Assembly (NCBI RefSeq): GCF_000020965.1
Contig: NC_011297.1
Location: 248,001-312,000, forward strand
From: Dictyoglomus thermophilum H-6-12
Lineage (GTDB): Bacteria; Dictyoglomota; Dictyoglomia; Dictyoglomales; Dictyoglomaceae
Direction of reading: 5' to 3'
Length of the DNA stretch: 64,000 nt
Part shown: one piece after another, positions 43,724 through 64,000 of the stretch
Position numbering within the stretch: the first letter of the stretch is position 1
Layout of the letters: each line of letters opens with the position of its first letter
The notes under the pieces: model-generated
What the model saw: only the letters and a program-made list of their open reading frames with translations
Told to the model about the DNA's origin: nothing
Database searches by the model: none
Position numbers and translations under genes: made by a program

Positions 43724-43765
43724 AGCTTAATAAATTTAATAAAAATGAAGGAGGGTAAATTTTAT

Positions 43766-47051: not shown

Positions 47052-48080
47052 TTGGTCACCATAAAAGATGTGGCTAAAAAAGCAGGGGTTTCAGTGATGA
47101 CCGTATCCCGAGTTATTAATGGGAGTAAGAATGTAAAGGAAAGTACTCGGGAGAAGGTTTTGAGGGCGATCGAAGAGTTAGGTTATGTTCCTAATTCAGT
47201 AGCAAGGAGTCTTATTTTAAATAAAACTTTAACTATAGGACTTGTAATATCAGATATAACAAACCCATTTTTTACAACCATTGCAAGGGGAGTTGAGGAT
47301 ACTGCAATTTCTAAACATTTTACTGTTATCCTTTGTAATACTGACGAAGATCCAGAAAAAGAAATGATGTATGCTGAGGTTTTAGCTAGGAGTAAAGTTG
47401 ATGGGGTTATTTATGCCTCTGCCTCTGGCAAAAAAGCTCCTTTAAAATCTTTATTTTTAAAAAAGATTCCTATTGTTTTAATTGATAGAACTATAGAAGG
47501 CGTAAATGACTTAGATATTGTAAGAGGAGACAGTGTTTTAGGGGCTTACCTTCTTACTAAACATTTAATTGATTTAGGACATAGAAGAATTGGAATTATT
47601 GTAGGAAGTCATTTTATTTCAACAGCAAGGGACAGAATAGAAGGATATAAAAAAGCTCTTAATGAGGCAAATATACCGATAGATGAATCATTAATTAAGA
47701 TCAATGAAAACTCTAAGTTTTCTAAAGAGGATGGCTATAGATTAACTAAGGAACTTTTGAATTTGGAAAATCCTCCTACTGCCATTTTTGGAGGAAACAA
47801 CCTTATGGCTGTAGGAGCACTTCTTGCGATAAGAGAAAGAGGATTAGAGATACCTGAAGATATCTCTCTTGTCTCTTTTGATGATATTGAAAGTTTATCA
47901 GAAGTCTATCCTTTTTTAACGGTTGTTAAACAACCTGCTTATACTATGGGGGTTATTGCTACGGAGATTTTAATAAGGAGAATAGAGAACAGAGATAAAA
48001 TTAAGGAAAAAAGAGAGATACTTCTTACCCCTGAGTTAATCATAAGAAAGTCAACTGCTCCACCCAAAAGAAAAATATAG
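47052..48080 (+). CDS. LacI/GalR-family transcriptional regulator
   Basis: 342 residues. TTG start at 47052 (GGGGG 8 nt upstream); no ATG is available because [24 protein letters not shown], the LacI helix-turn-helix, begins at residue 2. The hinge [11 protein letters not shown] and periplasmic-binding-like sensor ([41 protein letters not shown]) follow. It should sense a free sugar, probably L-fucose, L-rhamnose or a derivative, and control the operon it heads. Confidence 0.93.
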
Positions 48081-48100: not shown

Positions 48101-49921
48101 ATGAACAGGATTTTTCCTGTGAGAGTTGGAGAAAAAAGGTTTATTGAGGAATATCCTAAGGTGGGAATTCGTCCAACCATCGATGGTAGATATGGAGGAG
48201 TAAGAGAATCGTTGGAAGAACAAACCATGAATTTAGCCAAGGCTGTTGCTGAATTTATTGAAAACAATGTTTATTTACCCAATGGAGAGAAAGTTAAATG
48301 TGTGATTCCTCAAAGGTGCATTGGAGGGGTAGCTGAAGCAAGAATGGCGGATGAGTTGTTTAGAAAAGAAGGAGTAGGAGTTTCTATTACTGTTACACCC
48401 TGCTGGTGTTATGGCGCAGAAACCATGGAGATGAGTCTGGATGTACCGAAAGCAGTGTGGGGATTTAATGGGACAGAAAGGCCTGGGGCTGTTTACTTGG
48501 CGGCTGTTTCTGCTGCGCATAATCAGAAGGGTCTACCTATATTTAAGATCTATGGAAAAGATGTACAGGATAAAGATGATTACAGTATACCTTCAGATGT
48601 AAAAGAAAAGATTTTAAAGTTCGTCAAAAGCGCTCTTGCAGTAGCAATTATGAAGAATAAATCTTATCTTTCTATCGGTAGTGTTTCCATGGGTATTGCT
48701 GGATCTATTGTAGATCCTGACTTCTTTGAAGATTATTTGGGGATGAGAGTTGAATATGTGGATATGACGGAGATTATTAGGAGAATAGAGAGAAAAATTT
48801 ATGATGAAGAAGAATTTAAGAGGGCAATGGAGTGGGTGAAGAAATATTGTAAGGAGGGAGAGGATCCCAATCCTCCTGATAAGAGGGTTGATGAAAAGAA
48901 GAAGCAAGAGGTTTGGGAATTTGTAGTTAAGATGACTTTAATTATAAGAGATTTAATGGTAGGAAATAAAAAGTTAGAGGAATTAGGTTATCCTGAAGAA
49001 AGCTTGGGTCACAACGCAATAGTTGCAGGCTTTCAAGGACAACGTCAATGGACAGATCATTTCCCTAATGGTGATTTTACAGAGGCAATTTTAAATACTT
49101 CTTTTGATTGGAATGGGCTTAGACAGCCATATATATTGGCTACAGAGAATGATAGTCTTAATGGTGTGGTTATGCTTTTTGGGCATTTATTGACAAATAC
49201 TGCCCAAATCTTTGCTGATGTAAGAACCTATTGGAGTCCTGAAGCGATTTATAGGGTTACAGGTTGGAAGCCAGAAGGGTTAGCTCAAAACGGAATAATT
49301 CATTTGATAAATTCTGGACCTGCAGCACTTGATGGAACAGGTCAGCAAGAGATTGAAGGTAGACCAGCAATAAAACCATTCTGGGAGATAAGCGATGAGG
49401 AAGTTATAAAATGTTTAGATGCAACTAAGTTCTGCTATGCTAATTTAGGTTATTTTAGGGGTGGAGGATTCTCTACTAAATTCATCACAAGAGGTGGAAT
49501 GCCTATAACTATAAGCAGATTAAATATAGTTAAGGGACTTGGGCCTGTATTACAAATTGCTGAAGGATACACAGTAGAACTTCCTCCTCATGTCCATGAA
49601 ATTCTCGATAGAAGGACAGATCCAACTTGGCCTACCACATGGTTTGTTCCTAAATTAACAGGTAAAGGTGCCTTTAAGAGTGTTTACTCTGTGATGGAAA
49701 ATTGGGGAGCTAATCATTGTGCCATAACCTATGGACATGTAGGAGATTTGTTTATTACTCTCGCTTCTATTTTGAGAATTCCAGTAAATATGCATAATGT
49801 GGAAGAAGAAAGAATATTTAGGCCTAGTGCTTGGTCTATGTTTGGTACGGAGGATTTAGAAGGTGCTGATTTTAGGGCTTGTGTGAATTTTGGTCCTTTA
49901 TATAAGAAGGTAGCCAAGTAA
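48101..49921 (+). CDS. fucI: L-fucose isomerase family protein
   Basis: 606 residues, near the usual 590. [19 protein letters not shown] at the N-terminus, [23 protein letters not shown], the metal-binding Glu/Asp in [13 protein letters not shown] and the His in [13 protein letters not shown] are FucI marks. Interconverts L-fucose and L-fuculose with Mn2+; family members also use D-arabinose and related sugars, so the in vivo substrate could be another 6-deoxyhexose. GGGGAGG precedes the ATG; 20 nt after the regulator. Confidence 0.92.
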
Positions 49922-49941: not shown

Positions 49942-51450
49942 ATAAGTACTGAAACCTTAGTTTTAATGGAGAATATAAACAAAAGCTTTCCTGGAGTTCA
50001 GGCTTTAAAAGATGCTTATTTTGAACTTAATCGAGGAGAAGTACATGCATTAGTTGGGGAAAATGGTGCAGGAAAGTCCACCCTAATGAAAATTTTAGTA
50101 GGAGCTTACAGGAAAGATTCTGGAAGGATTATTTACAAGGGGAAAGAGGTAGATATTCCTAATCCTCGTGTTGCTCAAGAGATGGGAATAAGTATGGTAT
50201 TTCAGGAGTTGAACTTAATGCCGCATTTAACTGTGGCACAAAATATATTCATCGGAAGAGAACCAAAACGAAAAAATATACCTATATTTTTAGATGATAA
50301 TGAGATAAACAAGAGAACAAAAGAGCTTCTTGATATGCTTCATTTAAAGGTAGAACCTAATGTTAAAGTCTCGAATTTGAGTGTAGGGAAGCAGCAAATG
50401 GTAGAAATTGCAAAAGCACTATCTTTTAATTCAGAGGTTATCATTTTTGATGAACCTACTGCTGCGTTGAGTGAAGCAGAAACTGAAGAACTTTTTAATG
50501 TGATAAGAAAGCTTAAAAGTCAAGGAATAGGAATAATATATATTTCTCATAGGTTGGAAGAATTAAAAGAAATAGCTGATAGAGTTACTGTTATGAGAGA
50601 TGGACAATACATAGCTACTGATTACATGAAAAATTTAACTATAGAGAAGATTATAAGCATGATGGTGGGTAGAGAGATATATGAGACTTTACGGGAGAGA
50701 GAAGTAGATGAAAATGCTGAGGTTGTATTAGAAGTAAGAAATCTTAAAAGAGGTAAAGTTTTTAAAGATATTAGTTTTAGTTTGAGAAAAGGAGAAATTT
50801 TAGGATTTGCAGGTTTAATAGGAGCAGGAAGAACGGAGGTTGCAAGAGCTATATTTGGGGCTGATCCTATAGATTCTGGCGAGATCTATGTTAAAGGTAA
50901 AAGAGTAAGTATAAAAAATCCATGGGATGCTATTAATCATAGAATTGCATATCTTTCTGAGGATAGAAAGAGATATGGATTGATGCCTGATCTTGATGTC
51001 AAATCTAATATTATTTTACCTTCGATGAGAGATTTTCTCAGAGCCTTAGGTTTTGTGGATGATAAAAAGGCTGAAAGTGTAAGTAATGAGTATGTAAAAA
51101 GATTAAAAATAAGGACCCCATCGGTAAAGCAAAAAGTTAAGAATCTTTCTGGAGGAAATCAACAGAAGGTAGTAGTAGCAAAATGGTTGCTTAAAAACTG
51201 TGATATTCTCATATTTGATGAACCCACCAGAGGGATAGATGTAGGTGCAAAAAATGAAATATATAAGTTGTTGAATGAATTGATAGCTGAGGGAAAATCG
51301 ATAATTATGATTTCTTCAGAGCTTCCTGAGATTTTGAGAATGAGTCATAGAATTGTGGTGATGTGTGAAGGAAGAATTACCGGAATATTAGATGCCAATG
51401 AGGCAACGGAAGAGAAGATTTTAAAATATGCTACCATGTATGAGGATTAA
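49942..51450 (+). CDS. Sugar ABC ATPase, RbsA/MglA type; possible ATA start
   Basis: Two ATPase halves. Half 1: GENGAGKST, QELNLMPHLTV, LSVGKQQM, VIIFDEPTAALS. Half 2: degenerate Walker A GLIGAGRTE, LSGGNQQK, DEPTRGIDVG. The first ATG is 49966, but it has no ribosome site and would cut off the first strand. The 8 codons upstream (STETLVL before MENINKSFPGV) match the normal RbsA N-terminus, begin at an ATA (49942), and have GGAAGGGGG at the right distance. So translation may start at AUA, or the ATG was mutated. Energises the ribose-type importer encoded next. Confidence 0.85.
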   Translation: MSTETLVLMENINKSFPGVQALKDAYFELNRGEVHALVGENGAGKSTLMKILVGAYRKDSGRIIYKGKEVDIPNPRVAQEMGISMVFQELNLMPHLTVAQNIFIGREPKRKNIPIFLDDNEINKRTKELLDMLHLKVEPNVKVSNLSVGKQQMVEIAKALSFNSEVIIFDEPTAALSEAETEELFNVIRKLKSQGIGIIYISHRLEELKEIADRVTVMRDGQYIATDYMKNLTIEKIISMMVGREIYETLREREVDENAEVVLEVRNLKRGKVFKDISFSLRKGEILGFAGLIGAGRTEVARAIFGADPIDSGEIYVKGKRVSIKNPWDAINHRIAYLSEDRKRYGLMPDLDVKSNIILPSMRDFLRALGFVDDKKAESVSNEYVKRLKIRTPSVKQKVKNLSGGNQQKVVVAKWLLKNCDILIFDEPTRGIDVGAKNEIYKLLNELIAEGKSIIMISSELPEILRMSHRIVVMCEGRITGILDANEATEEKILKYATMYED

Positions 51451-51467
51451 AAGGAGGTTTAATTTAG

Positions 51468-52454
51468 ATGGCTGAAAAATTATCAGCTTTATTTTCTAAA
51501 AGTGGCTTGAGACAGATATTAATGTTTGCAAGTCTGTTTTTGCTTTTTGCTTTTTTCTCATTAGCTTCGCCTAATTTTTTAACTTATGAGAATGTAATTG
51601 CGATTTTACTTGCAACTTGTGTAAATGGGCTTCTTGCTCTTGGTGTAACTTTTGTAATTATTACAGGAGGTATTGATCTTTCTATTGGAACGGTTATGAC
51701 GATTTCTTCTGTTATGAGTGGTGTTTTTATAACTTTCTGGAAATTACCTGTTTTTGTTGGAGTTCTTGGGGGAATTCTAACTGGGGTTTTGGCGGGGTTT
51801 ATAAACGGTACTGTTATTTCTAAGATGAAATTACCACCTTTTATTGCCACCTTAGGTATGATGATGATAGCTAAAGGTTTAGCTTTGGTAGTTTCAGGAT
51901 GTAAACCTATATATTTTAATGACGCTCCTATTTTTAATAAGATTGCTATGGGATCTATATTGGGTAGTATATTTCCTGGTTTAGGTGAGTTTCCTAATGC
52001 AATCTTATGGTTTATTCTATTTATAATTATTGCACATATTATTCTTACAAGAACTGCTCTTGGTAGATATACCTTTGCAATTGGAAGTAATGAAGAAGCT
52101 GCAAGACTTTCAGGGTTAAATGTAGATAAATGGAAGACCATAATATATGCCTTATGTGGAATGTTTGTGGGTATAGCAGGAGTTATAATGGCTTCCAGAT
52201 TGAATTCAGCCCAACCTGCTTTAGGCCAAGGATATGAGCTTGATGCTATAGCTGCTGTAGTAATAGGAGGGACGTCTTTGAGAGGGGGAGAAGGTTCAAT
52301 AATTGGAACTGTTATAGGAGCCTTGATAATGAGCACTCTTACTAATGGTTTAAGAATCTTATCTGTACCTCAGGAATGGCAGATTGTGGTAAGTGGAATT
52401 ATAATTATCGGTGCTGTTTATCTTGATATCATAAGAAGGAGCAGAGAAGTATGA
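51468..52454 (+). CDS. Sugar ABC permease, RbsC type
   Basis: 328 residues with about ten hydrophobic segments. VTFVIITGGIDLSIGTVM is the RbsC hallmark near residue 65; NEEAARLSGLNVDKWKTIIYALCG is the ATPase-contact loop; VVIGGTSLRGGEGSIIGTVIGALI follows. AAAGGAGG precedes the ATG. Works as a homodimer with the ATPase before it and the binding protein after it; sugar presumably a 6-deoxyhexose or pentose by context. Confidence 0.92.
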   Translation: MAEKLSALFSKSGLRQILMFASLFLLFAFFSLASPNFLTYENVIAILLATCVNGLLALGVTFVIITGGIDLSIGTVMTISSVMSGVFITFWKLPVFVGVLGGILTGVLAGFINGTVISKMKLPPFIATLGMMMIAKGLALVVSGCKPIYFNDAPIFNKIAMGSILGSIFPGLGEFPNAILWFILFIIIAHIILTRTALGRYTFAIGSNEEAARLSGLNVDKWKTIIYALCGMFVGIAGVIMASRLNSAQPALGQGYELDAIAAVVIGGTSLRGGEGSIIGTVIGALIMSTLTNGLRILSVPQEWQIVVSGIIIIGAVYLDIIRRSREV

Positions 52455-52464
52455 ATAAATTAGG

Positions 52465-52492
52465 TAATATTTGCCAGTTCTGGCAAATATTA
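52465..52492 (+). terminator. 12-bp intercistronic hairpin before the binding-protein gene
   Basis: TAATATTTGCCA, gttc, TGGCAAATATTA, no T-run. Probably an RNA-processing or stability element giving extra binding protein relative to permease. Confidence 0.7.
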
Positions 52493-52523
52493 TAAAAATC
52501 TTAATTTGGGGGAGGTTTTCAAA

Positions 52524-53462
52524 ATGAAGCGTTTTCTAATTGTAACCTTAATTTCTCTTTTCCTAATTGGTTTCTCAATTACATCAGCTCAAAGACCATA
52601 TATTGCAATGATCTCAAAAGGGTTCCAACATCAATTTTGGCAAGCAGTGAAAATGGGAGCTGAAAAGGCAGCAAAAGATTTGAATGTTACTATTACTTTT
52701 GAGGGACCTGAGTCTGAAGCAATGGTAGATAAGCAAATTGAGATGTTACAAGCTGCTCTCGCTAAGAAACCTGCAGCTCTTTGTATTGCAGCTCTTGACA
52801 GTAAAGCAGTTATACCATATCTTGAAAAGGCACATTCTATGGGAATTCCAGTAATTGGTTTTGACTCTGGAGTAGACAGCGATATTCCTGTGACTACTGT
52901 AGCAACTGACAATATTAAAGCAGCAGGATATGCTGCCGATATGATGGCAAAGTTTATTAACAGGGTGGGAGAGGTGGCTTTAGTAGTTCATGACCAAACA
53001 AGTAGAACTGGAATTGATAGAAGGGATGGTTTTGTAAATAGGATTAAACAAAAATACCCATTAATTAAGATTGTAGCTATTCAATATGGTGGAGGAGATC
53101 ATCTTAAGTCTACTGATTTAGCAAAGGCTATTATACAGGCTCATCCAAGATTAAAGGGAATATTTGGTGCTAATGAGGGATCAGCTATAGGAGTTATTAA
53201 TGCTGTGAGAGAGATGAACAAAGTTGGAAAAATAGTGGTAATAGGATACGATTCTGGTAAACAGCAAATTGATGCTATAAAATCTGGCTTGATGGCAGGA
53301 GCTATTACTCAGAACCCAGTAGGAATGGGTTATATGGCTGTTGAAGCAGCTGTAAAGGCAATCAAAGGCGAGAAATTACCAAAATTTATCGACAGTGGTT
53401 TCTATTGGTATGATAAGACTAATATAGATGATCCTAAGATAAAACAGTGCTTATACGAATAG
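52524..53462 (+). CDS. Sugar-binding protein, RbsB family
   Basis: 312 residues from ATG 52524 (GGGGGAGG upstream), giving the signal peptide KRFLIVTLISLFLIGFSITSAQ. Periplasmic-binding-protein type 1 fold: YIAMISKGFQHQFWQAVKMGAEKAA, IPVIGFDSGVDSD, VGEVALVVHDQTSRTG, GIFGANEGSAIG, VIGYDSGKQQ. Binds a monosaccharide outside the membrane and delivers it to the RbsA/C-type importer. Ends at a strong terminator. Confidence 0.92.
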   Translation: MKRFLIVTLISLFLIGFSITSAQRPYIAMISKGFQHQFWQAVKMGAEKAAKDLNVTITFEGPESEAMVDKQIEMLQAALAKKPAALCIAALDSKAVIPYLEKAHSMGIPVIGFDSGVDSDIPVTTVATDNIKAAGYAADMMAKFINRVGEVALVVHDQTSRTGIDRRDGFVNRIKQKYPLIKIVAIQYGGGDHLKSTDLAKAIIQAHPRLKGIFGANEGSAIGVINAVREMNKVGKIVVIGYDSGKQQIDAIKSGLMAGAITQNPVGMGYMAVEAAVKAIKGEKLPKFIDSGFYWYDKTNIDDPKIKQCLYE

Positions 53463-53507
53463 TTACAAATCTGACTGCTAATTGATAAATAGAAGATAGA
53501 AATCATA

Positions 53508-53529
53508 GGGGAGGCTAAAAAGCCTCCCC
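53508..53529 (+). terminator. Rho-independent terminator of the first sugar operon
   Basis: GGGGAGGCT, aaaa, AGCCTCCCC then ttttatttttg. Confidence 0.95.
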
Positions 53530-53547
53530 TTTTATTTTTGTCTCTTT

Positions 53548-53576
53548 TTGACAAATCATATATTTTTATGTAGAAT
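53548..53576 (+). promoter_or_regulatory. Promoter of the RhaS-like operon
   Basis: TTGACA at 53548-53553, 17-nt spacer, TAGAAT at 53571-53576. Leader of about 115 nt; no LacI-type palindrome seen in it. Confidence 0.75.
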
Positions 53577-53695
53577 AAAAACAAATGAAAGTAAAAAATA
53601 ATCAAAAATGAAAAAAATTACTAAGGAGGAGGTGTAAAATTAATAAGCCTTTAATTGTACCTTTTAACTACAAAATCTTATTTGGGGGGAGCTAT

Positions 53696-54700
53696 ATGAA
53701 AAAGTTTTTAATTTTTGTACTTCTTGTATTGCTAATTGTGTTAGGTACAGAGAGTTTTGCTCAAAAGAAGTATGTAATTGGATTAGTAACAAAGACAGCT
53801 GGTAATCCATTCTTTGAGGCAGTAAATAAGGGGGCACAAGAAGCAGCAAAGGAATTAGGTATTACTGTGATACATCAAGCTCCTGCAGCATCAAGTGTAC
53901 AAGGTCAGATTGATATAATTAACTCAATGATTGCTCAAAAGGTAAGTGCAATCTGTATTTCTGCAAATGATCCTGATGCTTTGGTACCTGCATGCAGAAA
54001 GGCACAACTTAGGGGAATTCCGGTAGTAACTTTTGACTCAGCAGTAAAACCACAGGGAAGGAAGTTATTTGTAAACCAAGCAGATATGGAACAGATAGGA
54101 AGAATTCAAGTACAACTTTTGGCAAAGATGATCAACTATGAAGGTGAAATTGCTATACTGAGTGCTGCCTCCACAATGGCAAACCAAAATACTTGGATTG
54201 CTTGGATGAAGGAAGAATTAAAGAAACCAGAATATAGTAAGATGAAATTGGTAGCTATAGTTTACGGGGATGATATAAGGGAAAAGAGTTATAATGAGGC
54301 AATGGGATTATTTAAATCCTATCCTAACTTAAAGGGTATAATTGCTCCTACTACTGTTGGTATTGCAGCAGCTGCTCGTGCCATTGAAGATGCTGGATTA
54401 TCTGGAAAAGTTCAACTTACAGGACTTGGTTTGCCGAGTGAAATGGCGGAGTATGTGAAGAGAGGTACTTGTAAAGCATTTGCTTTGTGGAATCCTATAG
54501 ATTTAGGATACGCAACAATTTATGCTACTTATCGTTTGTTAACTAGAGAAATTAAAGGGAATGTGGGAGAAAAGGTTAATTTGGGAAAACTTGGAGAAAG
54601 AACAATTGTAGATGAAGGAAACGGGGGAAGAATGATAATTCTTGGACCTCCATTTGTATTTGATGCTTCTAATATAGATTATTGGTCTAAGGTCTACTAA
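53696..54700 (+). CDS. Rhamnose-type sugar-binding protein (RhaS-like)
   Basis: 334 residues. Signal peptide (KKFLIFVLLVLLIVLGTESFAQ). VTKTAGNPFFEAVNKGAQEAA and VVTFDSAV show the type 1 binding fold. LGLPSEMAEYVKRGT and ALWNPIDLGYAT are characteristic of the rhamnose ABC binding proteins, more so than of RbsB. Context (rhamnosidase and fucose isomerase upstream) supports L-rhamnose or a similar 6-deoxy sugar. GGGGGGAG precedes the ATG. Confidence 0.88.
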   Translation: MKKFLIFVLLVLLIVLGTESFAQKKYVIGLVTKTAGNPFFEAVNKGAQEAAKELGITVIHQAPAASSVQGQIDIINSMIAQKVSAICISANDPDALVPACRKAQLRGIPVVTFDSAVKPQGRKLFVNQADMEQIGRIQVQLLAKMINYEGEIAILSAASTMANQNTWIAWMKEELKKPEYSKMKLVAIVYGDDIREKSYNEAMGLFKSYPNLKGIIAPTTVGIAAAARAIEDAGLSGKVQLTGLGLPSEMAEYVKRGTCKAFALWNPIDLGYATIYATYRLLTREIKGNVGEKVNLGKLGERTIVDEGNGGRMIILGPPFVFDASNIDYWSKVY

Positions 54701-54712
54701 TAGAAAAATTCT

Positions 54713-54742
54713 AAAGGGGGAGGGTGTTAATTCTCCCCCTTT
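54713..54742 (+). terminator. Attenuating hairpin between binding protein and ATPase
   Basis: AAAGGGGGAG, ggtgttaatt, CTCCCCCTTT followed by tattttta; it ends 30 nt before the next ATG, so partial termination is likely. Confidence 0.8.
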
Positions 54743-54771
54743 TATTTTTAATTGAGAGGAGTTTTCAGATT

Positions 54772-56286
54772 ATGGAAGAGTATATTTTAGAGGTTAGAAA
54801 TATATATAAATCTTTTACAGGAACAAAACCAGTTTTAGAAGGAGTAAGTTTTAGCTTAAAAAAGGGCGAGATCCATGCTTTACTGGGTGAAAACGGAGCT
54901 GGAAAGTCTACATTGATAAAAATTATAAGTGGGGTTCTACAGCCTGACCATGGAGATATTCTATTAAAGGGTAAGAAAGTACATTTTAGTAATCCGTTAG
55001 ATGCTCAAAGACATGGTATTGCAGCAGTTTTTCAGGAACTTGCTTTATTTCCTGAGTTAAGTGTAGCAGAGAATATATTTATTGGGCATTATAAGTATAA
55101 GACTCCTTTTAAAAGTATTAATTGGAAGGATTTATACAAAGAGGCAAAGGATTTTTTAAGTTCCTTAGGTATTGAAATAGATCCCAAGGTTCCTGTTAAG
55201 AATTTGAGTATTGCAGAAAGACAAATAGTAGAAATTGCGAGAGTTCTATCTATAAATCCTGAGATTTTGATTATGGATGAGCCTACATCTTCTTTAACCT
55301 TAGAAGAGACTCAGAGGCTTTTTAGTATTATCAAGAGCTTAAAAGAAAGAGGAACATCCATAATTTTCATCTCTCATAGATTGGAAGAAGTTTTTGAAAT
55401 AGCAGATAGGGTAACGGTTTTAAGGGATGGGCAATATATAGGGACAAAAAATGTGTCAGAGACTAATGTAGACGAACTTATCCAGATGATGGTAGGAAGA
55501 AAGTTAGAAGATATGTATCCAAAGGTAGAAGCAAAAAGAGGAGAACTTTTATTAAAGGTTGATGGTTTGACAAGAAGTGGAGAATTTTATGATGTTTCTT
55601 TTGAACTTTTTGAAGGAGAGGTTTTAGGTATTGCTGGTCTTGTTGGTTCGGGTAGGACCGAAGTTGCTCAAACTATATTTGGTATAAGAAAGAAGGATAA
55701 AGGAAAGATATATGTAAGGGGGAGAGAAGTAGATATAAAGAGTCCAAAAGATGCTATAAGTCTTGGAATTGTATATGTCCCTGAAGATAGACATCAGCAT
55801 GGTTTACTTTTACCTATGGATATAGTTTGTAATATTACACTTCCTGTTTTAGAAAGTTTGGCGAGTAGGGGAATAATAGATAGAAGAGAGGAGGAAATAC
55901 TTACAAAAAGATATTTTGAAATTCTTGATATTAGGGCATCTGGAATAAGGCAGAAGGTAATGAGTCTTTCGGGAGGAAATCAGCAGAAGGTTGTACTTGC
56001 AAAATGGCTTGCTACTAAGCCAAAAGTTCTTATTCTTGATGAACCTACGAGAGGAATAGATGTAGGAGCAAAGGTGGCTATATATCAGCTGATAAATAAG
56101 CTTGCCCAGGAAGGCTATGGTATAATTCTCATTTCATCTGAGATGCCAGAGATTATTGGAATGAGTGATAGGATACTTGTAATGCACGAAGGAAGAATAG
56201 TTGGTACTATCTCAAGAAAGGAAGCAACTCAGGAGAAGATTTTGTCTATGGCTTTAGGAAGAAAGATATATTCGAAAAGTTTGTAA
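54772..56286 (+). CDS. Rhamnose-type ABC ATPase (double NBD)
   Basis: 504 residues from ATG 54772 (GAGAGGAG upstream; earlier in-frame starts lie in the terminator hairpin). Half 1: GENGAGKSTLIKI, FQELALFPELSV, LSIAERQIVEIA, LIMDEPTSSLT. Half 2: GLVGSGRTEVAQTIFG, LSGGNQQKVVLAKWL, LILDEPTRGIDVGAK. Typical of RbsA/RhaT-type ATPases serving two permeases. Energises uptake of the sugar bound by the RhaS-like protein. Confidence 0.9.
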   Translation: MEEYILEVRNIYKSFTGTKPVLEGVSFSLKKGEIHALLGENGAGKSTLIKIISGVLQPDHGDILLKGKKVHFSNPLDAQRHGIAAVFQELALFPELSVAENIFIGHYKYKTPFKSINWKDLYKEAKDFLSSLGIEIDPKVPVKNLSIAERQIVEIARVLSINPEILIMDEPTSSLTLEETQRLFSIIKSLKERGTSIIFISHRLEEVFEIADRVTVLRDGQYIGTKNVSETNVDELIQMMVGRKLEDMYPKVEAKRGELLLKVDGLTRSGEFYDVSFELFEGEVLGIAGLVGSGRTEVAQTIFGIRKKDKGKIYVRGREVDIKSPKDAISLGIVYVPEDRHQHGLLLPMDIVCNITLPVLESLASRGIIDRREEEILTKRYFEILDIRASGIRQKVMSLSGGNQQKVVLAKWLATKPKVLILDEPTRGIDVGAKVAIYQLINKLAQEGYGIILISSEMPEIIGMSDRILVMHEGRIVGTISRKEATQEKILSMALGRKIYSKSL

Positions 56287-56301: not shown

Positions 56302-57309
56302 ATGGGAAGAGTGGGTTCTGTAAATGAGCTAAAGGAGAAGACTTATGATATTTCAAGGTTAAGAGAGATCGGAATAATCTTTCCTCTTTTTCTTTTTGGA
56401 CTAATTATAGCATTGAGAAATCCTTATTTTATAAGCTGGGAAAATCTTCGTTATATTTTTCTTGACGCATCTATATTAACTATTGTGGCTGTAGGGGAAA
56501 TGATGGTTATACTTACTGGTGGAATAGATCTTTCCGTAGGTTCCAATCTTGCTTTAACTGGAATGATAGTATCAATGCTTTATAGAGACTTACCCAATTT
56601 CCCTGTAATATTAGCTCCTTTGATTGGAATTTTAATTGGAGGAATATGTGGAACTATAAATGGCCTTTTTGTGGCAAAGGGAAAAGTTATTCCTATAATT
56701 GCTACTCTTTCGACTATGTATATATTTAGGGGGATTGTGTATATAATTAGTAAGGGAAGATGGGTTAATGCTCATGAGATGCCCGAAGGCTATAAACTTC
56801 TTACCCGAGTTGAGATATTAGGTATCCCTATATTGGTAATTTATGCAATCATTGTTTTTTTGCTTTTTTATTATCTTTTGAACTACAAGGCCATTGGAAG
56901 GAGTATATATGCTGTTGGAAATAATCCTCAGTCAGCAGTATATATTGGTATTAATAGGGTGAAAGTCTTATTTTTGGTTTATCTTATCTCAGGCATTCTT
57001 GCTGGACTTGGTGGAGTTTTATATACATCCCGTTTTGCCTCTGCAGAAAGCAGTGCTGCAATGGGGTTTGAACTTTCTGCTATTTCTGCTGTGGTTATCG
57101 GAGGAGTAAAAACTACAGGTGGAGCTGGTAAGATAGGTGGGGTAGTTTTAGGAGCTTTGCTCTTGACAATGATTGTTAATGGGTTGAACGTTATGAAGAT
57201 ATCACCTTTTTATAAGCTTGCTCTTCAAGGTTTAATGTTCTTAATTGCCGTAATTGTAGATTCTTTAATTGCAGAGAGATACCAGAAGGGATATAGGAGG
57301 AGAGCATGA
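56302..57309 (+). CDS. Sugar ABC permease (RhaP/RbsC family)
   Basis: 335 residues, about nine hydrophobic segments. VGEMMVILTGGIDLSVGSNLALTG is the family motif; GNNPQSAVYIGINRVKVL is the ATPase-contact loop. AGGAGG precedes the ATG at 56302. First of two different permeases, consistent with a heterodimeric channel as in the rhamnose system. Overlaps the next gene by 4 nt. Confidence 0.9.
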   Translation: MGRVGSVNELKEKTYDISRLREIGIIFPLFLFGLIIALRNPYFISWENLRYIFLDASILTIVAVGEMMVILTGGIDLSVGSNLALTGMIVSMLYRDLPNFPVILAPLIGILIGGICGTINGLFVAKGKVIPIIATLSTMYIFRGIVYIISKGRWVNAHEMPEGYKLLTRVEILGIPILVIYAIIVFLLFYYLLNYKAIGRSIYAVGNNPQSAVYIGINRVKVLFLVYLISGILAGLGGVLYTSRFASAESSAAMGFELSAISAVVIGGVKTTGGAGKIGGVVLGALLLTMIVNGLNVMKISPFYKLALQGLMFLIAVIVDSLIAERYQKGYRRRA

Positions 57310-58262
57310 AGATAAAACTAAAAATAACATGGGAAATAATACTTCTCATATTAATTATACTGGTCTTTTTAGTAAGTAGTTTTCTCTCACCTTACTTTTT
57401 AGATATTGTTAATCTATTAGATACTACTACGAACTTTATGGAAAAAGGTCTTATTTCCCTTGCAATGACTTACATTATCATAAGTGGCAATATAGATATC
57501 TCGGTAGCATCTAATATGGGAATGGCTTCTGCTTTTATGGGAGTTCTTCATAGAATGGGAACTAATATTTGGATCTGTGCCCTTATAGGACTTATAATTG
57601 CTACCTTAGGGGGTTATTTAAATGGATATTTGATTGTAAGATTTAAGCTTCCCGCTATTGCAGTGACCTTAGGTACCTATGCACTATATAGGGGAATAGC
57701 TTATATTTTGCTTCAAGATACAGCTGTAGGCGTTGACTCAGAGAGTTTTATGTATTTAGGTCAGGGTTATATTGCAGGAACACCTATTCCTTTTTCTTTG
57801 GTTTTGTACATTATTTTTGCAATCATTTTTGGTTTTATCCTACATAAAACTACTTTTGGAAGATATGTCTATTCCATTGGAAATAACGAACAGGCATGTA
57901 AATTTTCAGCAATTCCGGTAGAGAAGATAAAGATAATTCTTTTTACCATTACCGGCTTTATGTCTGGGTTAGGAGCTATTCTTCTTACTTCTAGATTGAG
58001 TAGTATAAGACCAGATATTGGTAGTGGCTTGGAGCTTGAGGTTATTGCAACGGTAGTTCTTGGAGGAGTTAGTATTCTTGGAGGATCTGGAAATATGATT
58101 GGGGTTGTCTTATCTTTGTTTTTGATTGGTTTTTTAACCTATAGTTTGAATTTGTTAAACATACCAAGCCAGGTGATAACCATAATTATGGGTTCACTTC
58201 TTGTAGGGACTGTTCTCATATCTAATTTGTTAGAACAAAGGAGAGTAAAAGTAGGTAAATAA
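57306..58262 (+). CDS. Sugar ABC permease (RhaQ/RbsC family)
   Basis: 318 residues, hydrophobic throughout. AMTYIIISGNIDISVASNMGMASA replaces the usual TGGIDLS with SGNIDIS, as in the second rhamnose permease; GNNEQACKFSAIPVEKIKII is the coupling loop; VVLGGVSILGGSGNMIG follows. Start ATG overlaps the RhaP-like stop (ATGA); AGGAGG in the preceding gene end. Confidence 0.9.
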   Translation: MKIKLKITWEIILLILIILVFLVSSFLSPYFLDIVNLLDTTTNFMEKGLISLAMTYIIISGNIDISVASNMGMASAFMGVLHRMGTNIWICALIGLIIATLGGYLNGYLIVRFKLPAIAVTLGTYALYRGIAYILLQDTAVGVDSESFMYLGQGYIAGTPIPFSLVLYIIFAIIFGFILHKTTFGRYVYSIGNNEQACKFSAIPVEKIKIILFTITGFMSGLGAILLTSRLSSIRPDIGSGLELEVIATVVLGGVSILGGSGNMIGVVLSLFLIGFLTYSLNLLNIPSQVITIIMGSLLVGTVLISNLLEQRRVKVGK

Positions 58263-58284: not shown

Positions 58285-58659
58285 ATGGATAGAGAGATAG
58301 GAGCAAGGATTTGGCTTATTCCTGATGCTTATTTACCTGAAATTGGTGATCCTAATTTGCCAAGTCACGAATCTACTTGTATTTTAAATGTCAATGACAA
58401 GCCTGCTAAGGTCAAATTTACTTTTTATTTTGAAGATAAGGATCCCATAGAGTCCAAGGAGATAATTGTACCTCCAAAAAGGACTTGGCACGTAAGACTT
58501 GACAAGTCAGAGGAAATTCTTGGGGTTAAACTTGAGAGAAATGTACCTTTTGCAATAAAAGTAGAGAGTGATGTAAAGATTGTAGTTCAACATTCCAGGC
58601 TGGATACTCGGCAACCTAATCTTTCATATATGACTGCTATAGCTTGGGATGTTGATTAA
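58285..58659 (+). CDS. ASRT-family small-molecule-binding protein (PF07100-like)
   Basis: 124 residues. GARIWLIPDAYLPE, SHESTCILNVNDKPAKV, FYFEDKDPIESKEIIVPPKRTWHVRL and VQHSRLDTRQPNLSYMTAIAW line up with the Anabaena sensory rhodopsin transducer family, a compact all-beta soluble domain thought to bind small molecules such as sugars. No rhodopsin gene is here. Wedged between a sugar transporter (22-nt gap) and catabolic enzymes, it is more likely a sugar sensor, chaperone or mutarotase-like helper. AAAGGTGGT precedes the ATG. Confidence 0.85.
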   Translation: MDREIGARIWLIPDAYLPEIGDPNLPSHESTCILNVNDKPAKVKFTFYFEDKDPIESKEIIVPPKRTWHVRLDKSEEILGVKLERNVPFAIKVESDVKIVVQHSRLDTRQPNLSYMTAIAWDVD

Positions 58660-58723
58660 CATTATTTAATATTGAGACAAAATAACAAAATAAAAGCTAG
58701 TTAAAAAATAGGAGGTGTTTAAA

Positions 58724-61099
58724 TTGCCAAAGGAAATACCTATACTTCCGGAATTTGAACCAGGATATATTGAGGTAGGTGGAAAAATACCTAAATTTCA
58801 ATACAGAAAATCTTTAAAAGAAGAATTAAAAGAAGGAAATATAACTAAAGAAGAGAGTATAGATCTCTTTAAATGCATGCTTATGATTAGAAATTTTGAG
58901 GAAATGATCTATGAGTTAAGAGTTAATAAAGGTAAATATGGAAATATTAGGTATTTATACATAGGTGCTACTCATCTTTCCATTGGACAAGAAGCAGTTC
59001 CTACAGGAGGCATTTCGGTTATTAAAAAGGATGATTATATCACCAGTACTCATAGAGGGCATGGTGATGCTATTGCCAAAAGCTATTTTGGATTAAAAGA
59101 TATGAGTGAAGAAGAACTGATAGCTTTCATTGAGAATAATAGGGAGATTGCAAGTTTTTTGGGCTATGAGTGGAAGAATAAAGATAGAAATACTCTTTAT
59201 CAATATGCTCTTGATATTGAATTGTTTAAGGCAATAGGAGAACTTTTTGGGAAAGAATGGGGGGCTTGCAAAGGAAGAGGAGGATCTATGCACATTGCAG
59301 ATTTTAGTGTGGGGCATTTGGGCGCAAATGCCATTGTTGGTGGCAGTATGGGAATAGCAGTAGGATCTGCTATGGCTTCAAGATACATGGAAGATGGTAG
59401 AGTAACATTGTGTTTCATAGGGGATGGTGCAATGAATACAGGAATAGCTCATGAGGCAATAAATATGGCGTGTATGTCGCAATTTACCAATGGGCTTATG
59501 AGCAAAAGATTTGGAGTTCCTGTAATATTTATGGTTATGAATAATCAATATGGAGAATCAGGGCAACAAAGGGGCGAGGTAACAGGGATAGATTATATTG
59601 CAGAGAGGGGTTTTGCATATAGCAAGAATGGTATGAATGCAGAAATAGTAAATGCTATGAATGTACTTGCAGTAAGAGATGCAGTTAAAAGAGCCGTAGA
59701 AAAGGCAAGAAAAGGAGAGGGACCAATTCTTCTTGAATTTTGGGGATATAGATTTATGGGACATTCATTAAGTGATACCTTAGAAAAACCAGAAGATGGT
59801 ACTTATAGGACTTATGATGAACTACAAGCATGGAAGAAATATGATCCCTTAGAGCTTTATGCCAAAGAGTTGATAGATGCAGAAGTGCTTACTCCTGAAG
59901 AAATTGAGAATCTGAAAAAAGAATATAGACAGAGAAATGAAAATATTGCTGCAAAGGTAATAGAATCTCCTAATCCGGATCCTAAGGATATGACCAAATA
60001 TGTTTTTAAAGAGGATTCCATAGATAGTTTTGTACCTGAAAAGTTTAGAAACGTTACTGTGCTTAAGGAACCAAAATTCAAAGATAGAGATCCAGATGTA
60101 GAAATAAACTACAAAGAAGCAATTATTGAAGCATTGTATCAAGAGATGAAAAGAGATGGAAGAGTATTAATGTGGGGGGAGGATATAGCTGATTATGGTG
60201 GATCTTTTGGAGAGACGAAGGGACTTTTAGAAATATTTGGAAGGGATAGGATATTCAATACTGCCATTTCTGAGGCGGCAATAGTAGGGGCAGGGGTTGG
60301 AGCAGCAATGAGAGGTTTGAGGCCTATAGTAGAAATAATGTATATCGATTTTATTTTAATTGCTATGGATCAAATAGCAAATCAGGCTGCTAAGATGCGT
60401 TATATGTCGGGAGGACAAGCAGAAATACCTCTCACTATAATAACCACCATTGGTGGTGGTAAAGGGTATGCAGGTCAGCATTCTCAGAGTATCGAATCAA
60501 TTCTGACTCATTTCCCAGGATTGAAAGTTGTTGCTCCTTCAGATGCTTATGATGCAAAAGGCTTATTGATAGCTTCCATAAGAGATAAAAATCCTGTAAT
60601 TTATATAGAGCATCAAAATCTACTTCAAGATCCTTTATTACTATCTTTATCAAAGAGAAAGGTTCCTAAAGAAGATTACATAGTCCCTATTGGAAAAGCA
60701 GATATTAAGAGAAAAGCTAAAAATTATGATAAAAGTGTGACTGTAGTTTCATGGTCTGCTATGATTTATGCTGTGCTTAAGGCGGCAGAGGAATTAGAAA
60801 AAGAAGGGATTGAATTAGAGGTGGTAGATCTTAGAAGTTTATATCCTTTAGATATAGATACCATCATTGATTCTGTAAAAAGGACAGGAAGGTTTGCTGT
60901 TGTTACTCAAGCTGTAGAATTCATGTCCTTATCTTCTGAGATAATAACTCAGCTTTATCAAAAAGCTTCGTCTTTTCTTGTTAGGCCACCGATAAGAATA
61001 GGTGCTCCTTTCTGCCCTCCACCAGCTTCTCCTGTTCTTGAAAAAGCGTATTTACCTAATGATAAAAGGATTATAGAAGAAATTAAGAAGTTATTTTAA
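58724..61099 (+). CDS. 2-oxoacid dehydrogenase-type E1, fused alpha and beta subunits
   Basis: 791 residues from TTG 58724 (AGGAGGT 8 nt upstream; the GTG at 58715 overlaps that site). Alpha part: STHRGHGDAIA, CKGRGGSMHIAD, the TPP/Mg motif GDGAMN at 233-238 to NNQYG, FWGYRFMGHSLSD. Beta part from about 459: VEINYKEAIIEALYQEM, GEDIADYGGSFG, SEAAIVGAGVGAAMRG, YAGQHSQSIES, DLRSLYPLD. It decarboxylates a 2-oxoacid or cleaves a diketone with TPP and passes the acyl group to lipoate. An extra segment of about 40 residues (SEEELIAFIENNREI to TLYQYALDIELF) follows HRGHG and may shape the substrate pocket. Confidence 0.9.
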   Translation: MPKEIPILPEFEPGYIEVGGKIPKFQYRKSLKEELKEGNITKEESIDLFKCMLMIRNFEEMIYELRVNKGKYGNIRYLYIGATHLSIGQEAVPTGGISVIKKDDYITSTHRGHGDAIAKSYFGLKDMSEEELIAFIENNREIASFLGYEWKNKDRNTLYQYALDIELFKAIGELFGKEWGACKGRGGSMHIADFSVGHLGANAIVGGSMGIAVGSAMASRYMEDGRVTLCFIGDGAMNTGIAHEAINMACMSQFTNGLMSKRFGVPVIFMVMNNQYGESGQQRGEVTGIDYIAERGFAYSKNGMNAEIVNAMNVLAVRDAVKRAVEKARKGEGPILLEFWGYRFMGHSLSDTLEKPEDGTYRTYDELQAWKKYDPLELYAKELIDAEVLTPEEIENLKKEYRQRNENIAAKVIESPNPDPKDMTKYVFKEDSIDSFVPEKFRNVTVLKEPKFKDRDPDVEINYKEAIIEALYQEMKRDGRVLMWGEDIADYGGSFGETKGLLEIFGRDRIFNTAISEAAIVGAGVGAAMRGLRPIVEIMYIDFILIAMDQIANQAAKMRYMSGGQAEIPLTIITTIGGGKGYAGQHSQSIESILTHFPGLKVVAPSDAYDAKGLLIASIRDKNPVIYIEHQNLLQDPLLLSLSKRKVPKEDYIVPIGKADIKRKAKNYDKSVTVVSWSAMIYAVLKAAEELEKEGIELEVVDLRSLYPLDIDTIIDSVKRTGRFAVVTQAVEFMSLSSEIITQLYQKASSFLVRPPIRIGAPFCPPPASPVLEKAYLPNDKRIIEEIKKLF

Positions 61100-61116: not shown

Positions 61117-61377
61117 ATGGTGAAAAATGTCATTATGCCTAAAGTTAGTGATGTGATGGAAAATGGTACTGTTGCTTCTTGGCTTAAAAAAGAGGGAGAT
61201 AAGGTAGAAAAAGGCGAGCCTTTATTAGAGATTGAAGTAGAAAAAGCAATAATGGAGATAGAAAGTGAATATGACGGTTATTTAAGAAAGATATTGGTAA
61301 AAGAGGGTGAAACAGTACCTGTAGGTACCATTTTAGCCTATATTACTGATACCTTAGATGAGAATATACCTGAGTAA
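61117..61377 (+). CDS. Stand-alone lipoyl domain protein
   Basis: 86 residues: one biotinyl/lipoyl-attachment domain and nothing else. IMPKVSDVMENGTVASWLKKEGDKVEKGEPLLEIE, then EVEKAIMEIES where the Lys would carry lipoate (usual motif ETDKA), and YLRKILVKEGETVPVG. It supplies the swinging arm that in most complexes is fused to E2. AAGGAGG precedes the ATG; 17 nt after E1. Confidence 0.92.
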   Translation: MVKNVIMPKVSDVMENGTVASWLKKEGDKVEKGEPLLEIEVEKAIMEIESEYDGYLRKILVKEGETVPVGTILAYITDTLDENIPE

Positions 61378-61390
61378 GGAGGTTTAAACT

Positions 61391-62095
61391 TTGAACGAGA
61401 ACAATGTAAGCAAGAGAATTCCTTTAAATACTGTAAGAAGAACTATTGCCGAAAGATTATCAAAAAGCAAGCAATCAATTCCTCATTTTTATGCTGTAGC
61501 TGAAGTTGATGCTACAAATTTAGTTGAAGCAAGAGCTAATTTTGTCAATGAGAAAAATATAAAGATTTCTTATGATGATTTCATAATTAAAGCTACAGCC
61601 CTTTCTATGAAAGAATTTCCATTGATAAATGCTCGTTTTAGAGAAACAGAAATAGAGCTTTTAGAACACATAAATATTGGTTTTGCCGTAGCCTTAGGAG
61701 AAGAGGGTGTAGTAGTACCTGTTATAAGAGATGCTGATAAAAAGGCTATAACTCAAATATTTGAAGAAAGGATTTCTCTTGTAGAAAAAGCAAGAAATAG
61801 AAAATTAAGAGTAGAAGATATCTCTGATAGAAGTATTACCGTGAATAATGTAGGCGTATTTGGAGTGAGATCAATACTTGCTATAATTAATCCTCCAGAA
61901 GTAGCTATTGTTACATGTGGGGCTATTCAGGATAGAGTGGTGGTAGTTAATGGGGAAGTAAGAATCAGAAAGATGATGGATATAACTCTCTCAGCAGATC
62001 ATAGGGTAATAGATGGAGCATATGGATCTAAGTTTCTTATGAAAATAAAGGAATTTTTAGAAAGTCCTGATTTATTAGTAAGCAGGGAGGAATAA
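61391..62095 (+). CDS. E2 acyltransferase catalytic domain, without lipoyl or subunit-binding domains
   Basis: 234 residues from TTG 61391 (AAGGAGG upstream). RIPLNTVRRTIAERLSKSKQSIPHFYAVAEVDATNLVEAR opens the 2-oxoacid dehydrogenase acyltransferase fold; INIGFAVALGEEGVVVPVI and the active-site ADHRVIDGAYG (HxxxD) complete it. Transfers the acyl group from lipoate to CoA. The usual N-terminal lipoyl and E1/E3-binding domains are missing; the former is the gene just upstream. No E3 gene is present in the window. Confidence 0.92.
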   Translation: MNENNVSKRIPLNTVRRTIAERLSKSKQSIPHFYAVAEVDATNLVEARANFVNEKNIKISYDDFIIKATALSMKEFPLINARFRETEIELLEHINIGFAVALGEEGVVVPVIRDADKKAITQIFEERISLVEKARNRKLRVEDISDRSITVNNVGVFGVRSILAIINPPEVAIVTCGAIQDRVVVVNGEVRIRKMMDITLSADHRVIDGAYGSKFLMKIKEFLESPDLLVSREE

Positions 62096-62097
62096 AG

Positions 62098-63369
62098 ATG
62101 GAGACAATAGCTTTGAGAATGTATGGAAAGATGGATTTGAGACTTGAGAAATTTGAACTTCCTCAGATTAAGGAAGATGAAATACTTGCAGAGATAATTT
62201 CAGATACTAGTTGTCCTTCAACCTATAAAGAAATTTTACAAGGGCCAGATCATCCAAGAGTTCCAAAAGATGTGGACAAGAATCCTGTTATTGTAGGACA
62301 TGAAATGGCAGGGGTAATTTTGAAGGTAGGATCTAAATGGAAGGGTAAATATGAGGAGGGTCAAAAGTTTACAATTCAACCTGCCTTACTGTATGAAAAG
62401 GGTCCTGTAGGAGTGTTAAGCGCTCCAGGCTATTCATATAAATATTTGGGAGGTCTTGCCACAAAGGTTATTATTCCTAACGAGGTTATGGAACAAGATT
62501 GCCTTTTAATTTATGAAGGAGATGCCTTTTATAAAGCATCTTTAGTAGAGCCTTTGTCTTGTGTCGTAGGTGCTGTAAATGCTCAATATCATACTAAGGA
62601 AAATTCTTATGAGCATATAATGGGGATAAAACGTGGTGGTAAGACTGCAATTCTTGGTGGTGCAGGACCTATGGGACTTGCTTTCCTTGCTTATCTTATC
62701 TATGGTCCTCAAAATCCAAGCTTACTGGTTATTACTGATATTGATGATATGAAATTACAAAGAGCTATGAGAGCTTTTCCTAAGGAAGAAGTGAATAAAA
62801 GAGGAATAGATATTAGATTTGTAAATCCAACGAAAGATCAATCTTATAAAGATATAAGATATGATGACATTTTTGTTTTATATCCAAGTCCTAAATTAGT
62901 AGAAGAAGCGGATTCTCTTCTTGCTAGAGATGGTTGTTTAAATTTCTTTGCGGGGCCTACCGATCATAACTTTACTGCTTGTGTTAACTTTTATAAAGTC
63001 CATTATGATAAACATCATTTTGTGGCTACATCTGGTGGTAATGCTGATGATATGAAAATAGCATTAGATCTTGTGCAAAGAAAAATAATAGATCCTTCTC
63101 CTATGATTACTCATGTAGGTGGTTTGAATGTGGCAAAGGATGTGCTTTTGAACTTTCCTAACATTCCGGGTGGTAAAAAGTTGATCTATACTCATATAAG
63201 ATTTCCATTATCAGAAATAGAGGATTTTGAGAGATTAAGTGTAGAGGGACCTAAAGAGTTGAGAGATATATATAGAGATTTAGCTCAAATAGTGAGAAGT
63301 AATAACGGCTGGTGGTGTAAAGAAGCTGAAGAATATTTATTGACAAGGGGGGAGAAAATAGATGTGTGA
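62098..63369 (+). CDS. Zinc-type alcohol dehydrogenase, L-sorbose-1-P reductase-like
   Basis: 423 residues. GroES-like half: SDTSCPSTYKE and VGHEMAGVILKVG supply Zn-ligand Cys and His. Rossmann half: KTAILGGAGPMGLAFLAYLI and VITDIDDMKLQRA (NAD-preferring Asp). Large inserts and VEPLSCVVGA recall the SorE-type polyol/sugar-phosphate reductases. Probably oxidises or reduces a sugar or polyol in the pathway. ATG 2 nt after the E2 stop; overlaps the next gene by 8 nt. Confidence 0.85.
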   Translation: METIALRMYGKMDLRLEKFELPQIKEDEILAEIISDTSCPSTYKEILQGPDHPRVPKDVDKNPVIVGHEMAGVILKVGSKWKGKYEEGQKFTIQPALLYEKGPVGVLSAPGYSYKYLGGLATKVIIPNEVMEQDCLLIYEGDAFYKASLVEPLSCVVGAVNAQYHTKENSYEHIMGIKRGGKTAILGGAGPMGLAFLAYLIYGPQNPSLLVITDIDDMKLQRAMRAFPKEEVNKRGIDIRFVNPTKDQSYKDIRYDDIFVLYPSPKLVEEADSLLARDGCLNFFAGPTDHNFTACVNFYKVHYDKHHFVATSGGNADDMKIALDLVQRKIIDPSPMITHVGGLNVAKDVLLNFPNIPGGKKLIYTHIRFPLSEIEDFERLSVEGPKELRDIYRDLAQIVRSNNGWWCKEAEEYLLTRGEKIDV

Positions 63370-64000
63370 ATGTCAAAGATTAAAAGATAGGGTTGCGATT
63401 GTTACAGGTGCAGCTCAGGGGCTTGGAGAGGCTCTTTCTTATAGACTTGCTAAAGAGGGATGTAATGTAACTGTGGCTGATATAAAAATAGAAAAACTTC
63501 AAGAGGTAGCAAAAAGGATTGAAGAAGAATATGGCAGAAAGGCTCTTGCGGTGAAGTGTGATGTTACCAGCGAAGAAGATGTAAAAAATATGGTAGAAAA
63601 AACTGTTGAGGCCTTTGGAAAGCTTGATATAATGGTAGCCAATGCTGGTATTTTGATTGCTCATGATATTACGGAGTTTCCTCTTGAGGATTGGAAGAAG
63701 GTAATAGATGTTAATTTGACAGGATATTTCCTTTGTGCAAGAGAGGCAGCAAAAGTTATGGTAAAGCAGAAGTCTGGAGTAATAATTCAGATCAATTCAA
63801 AATCTGGAAAAAAAGGAAGTTTTAGAAATTCTGCTTATTCCGCATCAAAATTTGGAGGAATAGGATTTACTCAAAGTATTGCATTAGATCTTGCACCTTA
63901 TAACGTAAGAGTGGTAGCGGTATGTCCAGGGGATCTTTTAGATTCTCCACTATGGAAGGAAAGCCTTTATGATCAGTATGCTAAGAGATTAGGAATAAGT
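63362..64000 (+). CDS. Short-chain dehydrogenase, SrlD-like (partial)
   Basis: 213 residues seen; the C-terminus is beyond the window. ATG 63362 with GGGGGGAG upstream. VAIVTGAAQGLGEALS (NAD-binding TGxxxGxG), VANAGI, IIQINSKSGKKGS, catalytic YSASKFGG and CPGDLLDSPLW. The stretch GYFLCAREAAKVM with INSKSG matches sorbitol-6-phosphate 2-dehydrogenases closely, so a polyol/ketose (phosphate) oxidation is likely. Last visible member of the 53.7-64 kb operon. Confidence 0.88.
   Translation, partial: MCECQRLKDRVAIVTGAAQGLGEALSYRLAKEGCNVTVADIKIEKLQEVAKRIEEEYGRKALAVKCDVTSEEDVKNMVEKTVEAFGKLDIMVANAGILIAHDITEFPLEDWKKVIDVNLTGYFLCAREAAKVMVKQKSGVIIQINSKSGKKGSFRNSAYSASKFGGIGFTQSIALDLAPYNVRVVAVCPGDLLDSPLWKESLYDQYAKRLGIS

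Follow-up and report, generated by a model that had tools for sequence, protein, structure and literature searches.

The open reading frame (ORF) at positions 58285-58659 (+) of the window, a 64,000-nucleotide stretch of the Dictyoglomus thermophilum H-6-12 genome (NC_011297.1), encodes a full-length member of the Anabaena sensory rhodopsin transducer (ASRT) family, PF07100. Its operon, its clade and its phyletic pattern indicate that the protein would act in the cytosol in the catabolism of L-rhamnose (a 6-deoxyhexose), and on balance we consider it probable that it is an analogous, non-homologous L-rhamnose mutarotase doing the job of RhaM (PF05336).

The ORF is intact, with an ATG start, 124 codons and a GGTGG-type ribosome site 5' of the start, and begins 22 bases past the end of the upstream permease gene. 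PF07100 was the sole Pfam family matched (E 9.6e-44; 148.6 bits against a cut-off of 25), with positions 1-118 of the 119-position profile aligned to residues 5-121. As the family fills nearly the whole of the 124 amino acids, with no visible leader or fused domain, the protein is of the stand-alone intracellular type, and it is the only PF07100 protein encoded in this genome (a single contig of 1,959,987 bases). Searches of the PDB with phmmer retrieved the Anabaena transducer (2ii7, E 1.4e-22) and TM1070 of Thermotoga maritima (1nc7, E 2.7e-21). The AlphaFold model of the monomer (pLDDT 93.9, pTM 0.87) was matched best by 1nc7 in Foldseek (TM 0.88/0.93, rmsd 1.4 A), followed by 2ii7 and its relatives 2ii8, 2ii9 and 2iia; beyond 1nc7 and the 2ii7 group, no PDB entry was matched at E <0.001. 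The model and these matches give the protein the eight-stranded beta-sandwich of the 1nc7 type.

The initial annotation had assigned the family by eye from two motifs and had named a profile search and a structure prediction as checks; both confirmed the assignment. The first motif, SHESTCILN, is the published SHExxCxxN signature, and the second, VQHSRLDTRQ, holds the conserved residues Q102, R105 and D107. Trp10 (the N-terminal Trp) and Asn35 (at the end of strand 2), both conserved in the family alignment, are also present.

The features of the surrounding region, including a 6-deoxysugar cluster just upstream, are as follows.

43745-46531 (+), alpha-L-rhamnosidase-like enzyme of the upstream 6-deoxysugar cluster (NF041573, E 1.5e-215, below its cut-off)
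47052-48080 (+), LacI-type regulator of the same cluster
48101-49921 (+), L-fucose isomerase FucI of the same cluster (TIGR01089, 1035 bits, cut-off 850)
53507-53576 (+), terminator-like hairpin (53507-53530), then a promoter-like site (53548-53576; 11 of 12, the best of the region; consensus scan)
53696-54700 (+), rhamnose ABC transporter substrate-binding protein RhaS (TIGR02637, 540 bits, cut-off 342)
54713-54742 (+), terminator-like hairpin after RhaS, possibly a partial terminator (consensus scan)
54724-56286 (+), sugar ABC transporter ATPase (ORF with two ABC modules; orthologues in cluster c13 lie in rhamnose operons)
56302-57309 (+), sugar ABC permease (PF02653)
57306-58262 (+), sugar ABC permease adjoining the ASRT gene on its 5' side (PF02653)
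58285-58659 (+), 124-aa ASRT protein of the rhamnose clade, a proposed L-rhamnose mutarotase analogue (Pfam, fold, clade and phyletic pattern)
58715-61099 (+), fused E1 alpha-beta of a thiamine-diphosphate 2-oxoacid/acetoin-type dehydrogenase (PF00676, PF02779, PF02780)
61117-61377 (+), stand-alone lipoyl domain protein (PF00364)
61391-62095 (+), E2 acyltransferase catalytic domain lacking lipoyl and E3-binding domains (PF00198)
62098-63369 (+), alcohol-dehydrogenase-like protein (PF08240)
63362-64000 (+), short-chain dehydrogenase of the sorbitol-6-phosphate dehydrogenase (SrlD) type, extending beyond the window (NF009050, 408 bits, cut-off 307, for the whole gene in locus L008)

The ASRT gene is the fifth of the same-strand run from RhaS to the SrlD-type dehydrogenase, and judging from the sequence signals its transcription unit probably starts at 53548-53696, after the first hairpin. 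The GTG-started ATPase ORF overlaps the hairpin at 54713-54742, and its real start is probably later. Beyond the window, the order downstream is a xylose-isomerase-like TIM barrel, a class II aldolase, RhaI (L-rhamnose isomerase; 702 bits, cut-off 531) and RhaB (rhamnulokinase; 528.4 bits, cut-off 527.95), the last two located 11-14 kb further along the chromosome. The placement between sugar permeases and catabolic enzymes described in the initial annotation is therefore correct, given the PF02653 permeases on the 5' side and the dehydrogenase genes on the 3' side. Its statement that no rhodopsin is present holds for the neighbouring genes, the extent of this check, among which none was found.

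By description, the E1/lipoyl/E2 complex can be likened to the acetoin-dehydrogenase-like three-subunit enzyme (Athe_0702-4) of the C. bescii rhamnose cluster, whose predicted substrate is L-lactaldehyde, a cleavage product of rhamnose (PMC8579813), and by this analogy it is possibly an L-lactaldehyde dehydrogenase complex. Unlike in Athe_0702-4, the E1 of the window is one fused chain and its E2 is split. In the split E2 (61117-62095), the lipoyl protein has 86 aa and the catalytic domain, which lacks an E3-binding domain, has 234 aa; the corresponding E2 ORF in a relative (G004, locus L012) has 320 aa, and no E3 gene was seen near these positions. In a second locus, from a Bacillota MAG (L027:9998-15906), ASRT also lies close to a complex of this kind, 5' of a sigma-54 activator gene and an operon of the E1/E2 acetoin-dehydrogenase type. 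Two further observations concern the window itself: a second sugar ABC system at 49966-53462, with a D-allose/rhamnose-type binding protein (under every cut-off), has a strong hairpin at its end, just before the RhaS unit, and the translation of the ORF at 297-989 is internally repeated and rich in histidine and phenylalanine, which suggests repeated DNA at the window start.

A scan of 84,980 genomes with the family alignment yielded 458 loci, the best 80 of which were used for the comparison of neighbourhoods; genes were called with a finder weighted by codon-position composition, which missed 12 loci. The commonest arrangement in Bacillota among these best 80 was RhaEW-ASRT-RhaA or RhaI-RhaB-DeoR, often with LutABC, and two more operons, from Chloroflexota, read DeoR-ASRT-ABC-RhaS-RhaI-RhaEW. 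The consistent neighbours of the gene in other genomes are sugar genes, and neither of the outcomes that the initial annotation had named as refuting, a missing PF07100 match or a constant neighbour unrelated to sugars, was observed. In a tree of 72 ASRT sequences, of which only the main split was trusted because the sequences are short, a clade of 47 (Bacillota, Dictyoglomota, Thermotoga, Chloroflexota and others) that includes the window protein and TM1070 was separated from the Anabaena-type sequences (SH-aLRT 99%, branch 0.76). All 23 loci with RhaA, RhaI, RhaB or RhaEW within 9 kb, from Bacillota, one actinomycetote and one Thermomicrobia genome, fell in the clade of the window protein and none with the Anabaena protein; the neighbours in the Anabaena-type clade were alpha-amylase, sugar-lactone oxidase, luciferase-like and TPP-enzyme genes. 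Common to both clades is a polar core of His28, Glu29, Cys32, Asn35, Asp51, Arg66, His69, Arg71, Gln102, Arg105 and Asp107, and the rhamnose clade is marked by Asp14, Glu56, Gly80, Pro88 and Ser104.

The isomerase beside ASRT can be of either type, RhaA or RhaI, and ASRT therefore tracks the sugar rather than one enzyme. From the clade and its neighbours, the sugar of the window protein is very probably L-rhamnose, which supports and narrows the earlier suggestion of a sugar ligand and a metabolic role instead of light signalling. A light-signal transducer like that of Anabaena, with which the window protein shares family and fold, is highly improbable: the protein lies in the other clade across the well-supported long branch, rhodopsin is lacking among its neighbours, and Dictyoglomus is an anaerobic thermophile.

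Several of the other loci had features of their own. Diverged or second ASRT-like copies adjoin a sugar-lactone oxidase gene in Nitrosomonas and in a Bacteroidales MAG (L055:11066-11446 (-), L074:10946-11326 (-) and L076:2459-2833 (-)); in the two Nitrosomonas copies SHExxC reads SQDRIA, with the His and Cys lost, as in a paralogue with a presumably altered site. In two Peptococcaceae loci (L025 and L023), the ASRT-rhamnose operons run on into small ORFs of 84-124 aa and conserved enzymes, which could be a bacterial microcompartment locus. In the lineage with the nearest relatives outside Dictyoglomus (L014, L017 and L018), ASRT is always flanked on one side by an aldo/keto reductase-like gene and on the other by a gene for a 235-aa protein for which no Pfam match was found.

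If ASRT did the work of a rhamnose mutarotase, genomes should tend to carry one or the other of ASRT and RhaM. This pattern was analyzed in 151 genomes of one order, the sample being named Paenibacillales after its centre genome, a Cohnella, and all replacement statistics come from this order. A RhaB-type kinase was found in 120 of the 151 genomes, including all 65 with ASRT. Amongst these 120, ASRT only was present in 55, RhaM only in 48, both in 10 and neither in 7 (Fisher 6e-16, kinship not corrected for). Kinship was accounted for with a DnaN species tree of the same 120 genomes, on which ASRT required a minimum of 13 changes and RhaM 20. The independent-pairs test gave about 5 pairs in the opposite direction and 0.4 in the same direction, with a borderline median p of 0.06 in a test of little power. 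In a two-trait Markov model, dependent evolution was preferred over independent evolution (LR 23.5, 4 degrees of freedom, p 1e-4), with an equal advantage once long branches were removed and with a fitted RhaM loss rate that was high with ASRT and about nil without it. When one gene was simulated along this tree with the other kept as observed, 10 or fewer genomes with both were obtained in 0.15% of the draws, and at least 103 genomes carrying exactly one gene in 0 of 2000.

Amongst the Paenibacillales with RhaB, ASRT and RhaM replace each other, though not strictly, as seen from the genomes with both or neither. The small sugar mutarotase family RbsD/FucU (PF05025), used as a control in the same 120 genomes, was unassociated with ASRT or RhaM (p 0.77 and 0.76), and a replacement of this fucose/ribose mutarotase family by ASRT was rejected for that reason. 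The Chloroflexota were unsuited to a replacement test in a second phylum, since the 10 ASRT genomes among 301 were too few. Outside Paenibacillales, RhaM was present in 2 of 15 genomes with rhamnose-clade ASRT and in 5 of 10 with the Anabaena-type protein, a difference in the direction expected of a replacement, though not significant (p 0.08) and not conditioned on rhaB.

The same pattern was seen closer to the window. No match to PF05336 was found in the window genome, and in the well-assembled Dictyoglomota ASRT and RhaB were present in 5 of 5 genomes and RhaM in 0 of 5; in two of the five, the ASRT gene lies away from the operon, and RhaM is absent there too. A related MAG also has RhaB without RhaM. 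T. maritima, one of the control genomes, carries ASRT and RhaB but lacks RhaM; the controls with RhaM and RhaB but no ASRT were E. coli, B. subtilis, Deinobacterium and Bacteroides.

Adjacency to rhaB is not a rule for the family, and the idea that ASRT must adjoin this gene was rejected: only 20 of the 68 Paenibacillales copies lie within 10 kb of it. Most of the inspected copies away from rhaB are in rhamnogalacturonan-type operons. In six loci (L216, L217, L220, L222, L223 and L224) ASRT is the last gene of an operon with an ABC importer and a GDSL esterase, mostly headed by a response regulator and with a further hydrolase in three, and in a seventh (L219) the esterase adjoins ASRT. In L217, Pfam searches showed that the GDSL esterase carries a YXIM-type domain and that the hydrolase is of family GH88. 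This combination is typical of rhamnogalacturonan use, in which L-rhamnose is released. Locus L221, where ASRT has a GH14 amylase on one side and an ABC system on the other, does not fit this arrangement.

In the mutarotase reading, L-rhamnose arriving from the RhaS-type importer or from rhamnosidases would be bound by ASRT, which would speed the exchange between the alpha and beta rings of the sugar and thereby supply the isomerase with the anomer that it uses. The candidate site is the cleft at His28 and Cys32 that has been described in TM1070: in this tetrameric protein the cleft is deep, holds ethanediol beside the conserved His and Cys, and could accommodate a monosaccharide (PMC2739507). 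The chemical act would be ring opening and closing, for which a mutarotase requires a general acid and a general base near the ring oxygen and the C1 hydroxyl; the invariant His, Glu, Asp and Arg round the cleft would suffice, with the acid/base pair expected among His28, Glu29, His69, Arg71, Gln102, Arg105 and Asp107. The invariance of the polar residues in both clades is as expected for a catalytic site. A pure sensor might be expected to tolerate more change in its site and not to substitute for an enzyme, which is an argument rather than a proof. To our knowledge, no activity, binding or sugar-bound structure has been reported for any member of the family. The fold of RhaM is ferredoxin-like, unlike the beta-sandwich of ASRT, so a shared function would be convergence and not homology. 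Mutarotation is fast at the 70-80 C at which Dictyoglomus and Thermotoga live, and the need for a mutarotase is thus less obvious there.

The published proposal for this family is an intracellular sugar sensor (PMC2739507), in which the tetramer would bind rhamnose or a pathway intermediate and, by touching it directly, regulate an enzyme or a transporter encoded in the operon. The ethanediol in the 1nc7 cleft, the close tie of ASRT to operons and the claimed contact of the Anabaena relative with a membrane protein (PMC2739507) agree with such a sensor, and one that substituted indirectly for the contribution of RhaM would give the same phyletic pattern as a mutarotase. However, mutual replacement with RhaM is not something that a sensor predicts, ASRT travels with two isomerase types, no constant partner protein was found round it, and the gene often lies apart from any single enzyme or transporter partner (48 of 68 Paenibacillales copies are not within 10 kb of rhaB). 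We consider a sensor unlikely on these grounds, while noting that the authors of the 2009 study favoured it (PMC2739507).

Additionally, ASRT could carry out some other enzymatic or sugar-handling step of the rhamnose route, acting for instance on L-lactaldehyde, a lactone or a rhamnose oligosaccharide, so that RhaM and ASRT would merely mark two variants of the pathway. The pathway does vary, in its isomerase (RhaA or RhaI), its aldolase (RhaEW or a separate enzyme) and its end steps (Lut or acetoin-dehydrogenase-like), and ASRT adjoins an acetoin-dehydrogenase-like complex in the window and lies near one in L027. Yet ASRT occurs with every one of these variants, and on the tree its exchange with RhaM is seen many times over, which makes this explanation quite unlikely. 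Mutarotase activity, which the initial annotation had listed only as a test, is favoured by the evidence.

A wider and somewhat doubtful extension is that the whole ASRT beta-sandwich represents a new, non-homologous class of sugar mutarotase, with the rhamnose clade acting on L-rhamnose and the Anabaena clade on another sugar such as glucose, given its amylase and lactone-oxidase operons; the rhodopsin transducer would then be a sugar mutarotase recruited, or mistaken, for signalling.

The sugar-operon and sugar-binding reading is not new, since De Souza, Iyer and Aravind named the superfamily in 2009, listed Dictyoglomus and proposed intracellular sugar binding or sensing in sugar operons (PMC2739507). 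They mention operons of an isomerase, an aldolase and a kinase as well as monosaccharide ABC operons, and their main text names no particular sugar and no catalysis (PMC2739507). Rodionov et al. (2013) wrote the T. maritima operon, induced 27-37-fold by rhamnose, as rhaMADBC; in their main text the name rhaM comes with no mention of mutarotase, no argument and no assay (PMC3750489). Read with the 2009 gene order, the T. maritima "rhaM" is very probably TM1070, and the mutarotase idea may have been in the minds of those authors. A survey of rhamnose pathways describes RhaM, and a term search of it did not find the ASRT family (PMC3870299). Our literature search found no paper joining the transducer with mutarotase or rhamnose, and none naming PF07100.

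What is new here is L-rhamnose as the very probable sugar, the replacement between ASRT and RhaM and, as an argued claim, the proposal of an analogous L-rhamnose mutarotase, backed in one order by a test that corrects for kinship. Structures of ASRT proteins exist, there is no settled function outside Anabaena, and in the literature searched no test of the statement that they bind some sugar has appeared since 2009. With one sugar and one reaction named, the question becomes answerable by a single assay on the already crystallised TM1070. If the proposal is true, a missing mutarotase step is filled in Dictyoglomus, Thermotoga and many Paenibacillales, the family gains a function, and the question arises whether the sole photoreceptor "transducer" of its kind is really a sugar enzyme.

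Compared with known systems, the window protein is closest to TM1070, with which it shares the fold, 42% identity over the aligned part, the signature and a rhamnose context, the gene order published for TM1070 placing it in an isomerase-aldolase-kinase operon (PMC2739507); it differs in that its gene is inside the RhaS transporter/acetoin-dehydrogenase-like unit and not beside the isomerase and kinase. With Anabaena ASRT it has in common PF07100, the fold and all invariant residues, whereas the two belong to separate clades between which, for example, Asp14 is changed to Glu, Ser104 to Thr and Glu56 to Gly, and the Anabaena protein has a rhodopsin partner. RhaM/RhaU (PF05336) resembles it in proposed function, as a small cytosolic protein of rhamnose use that tends to exclude it from the same genome, and is unlike it in having no sequence match and in being absent from the Dictyoglomota tested.
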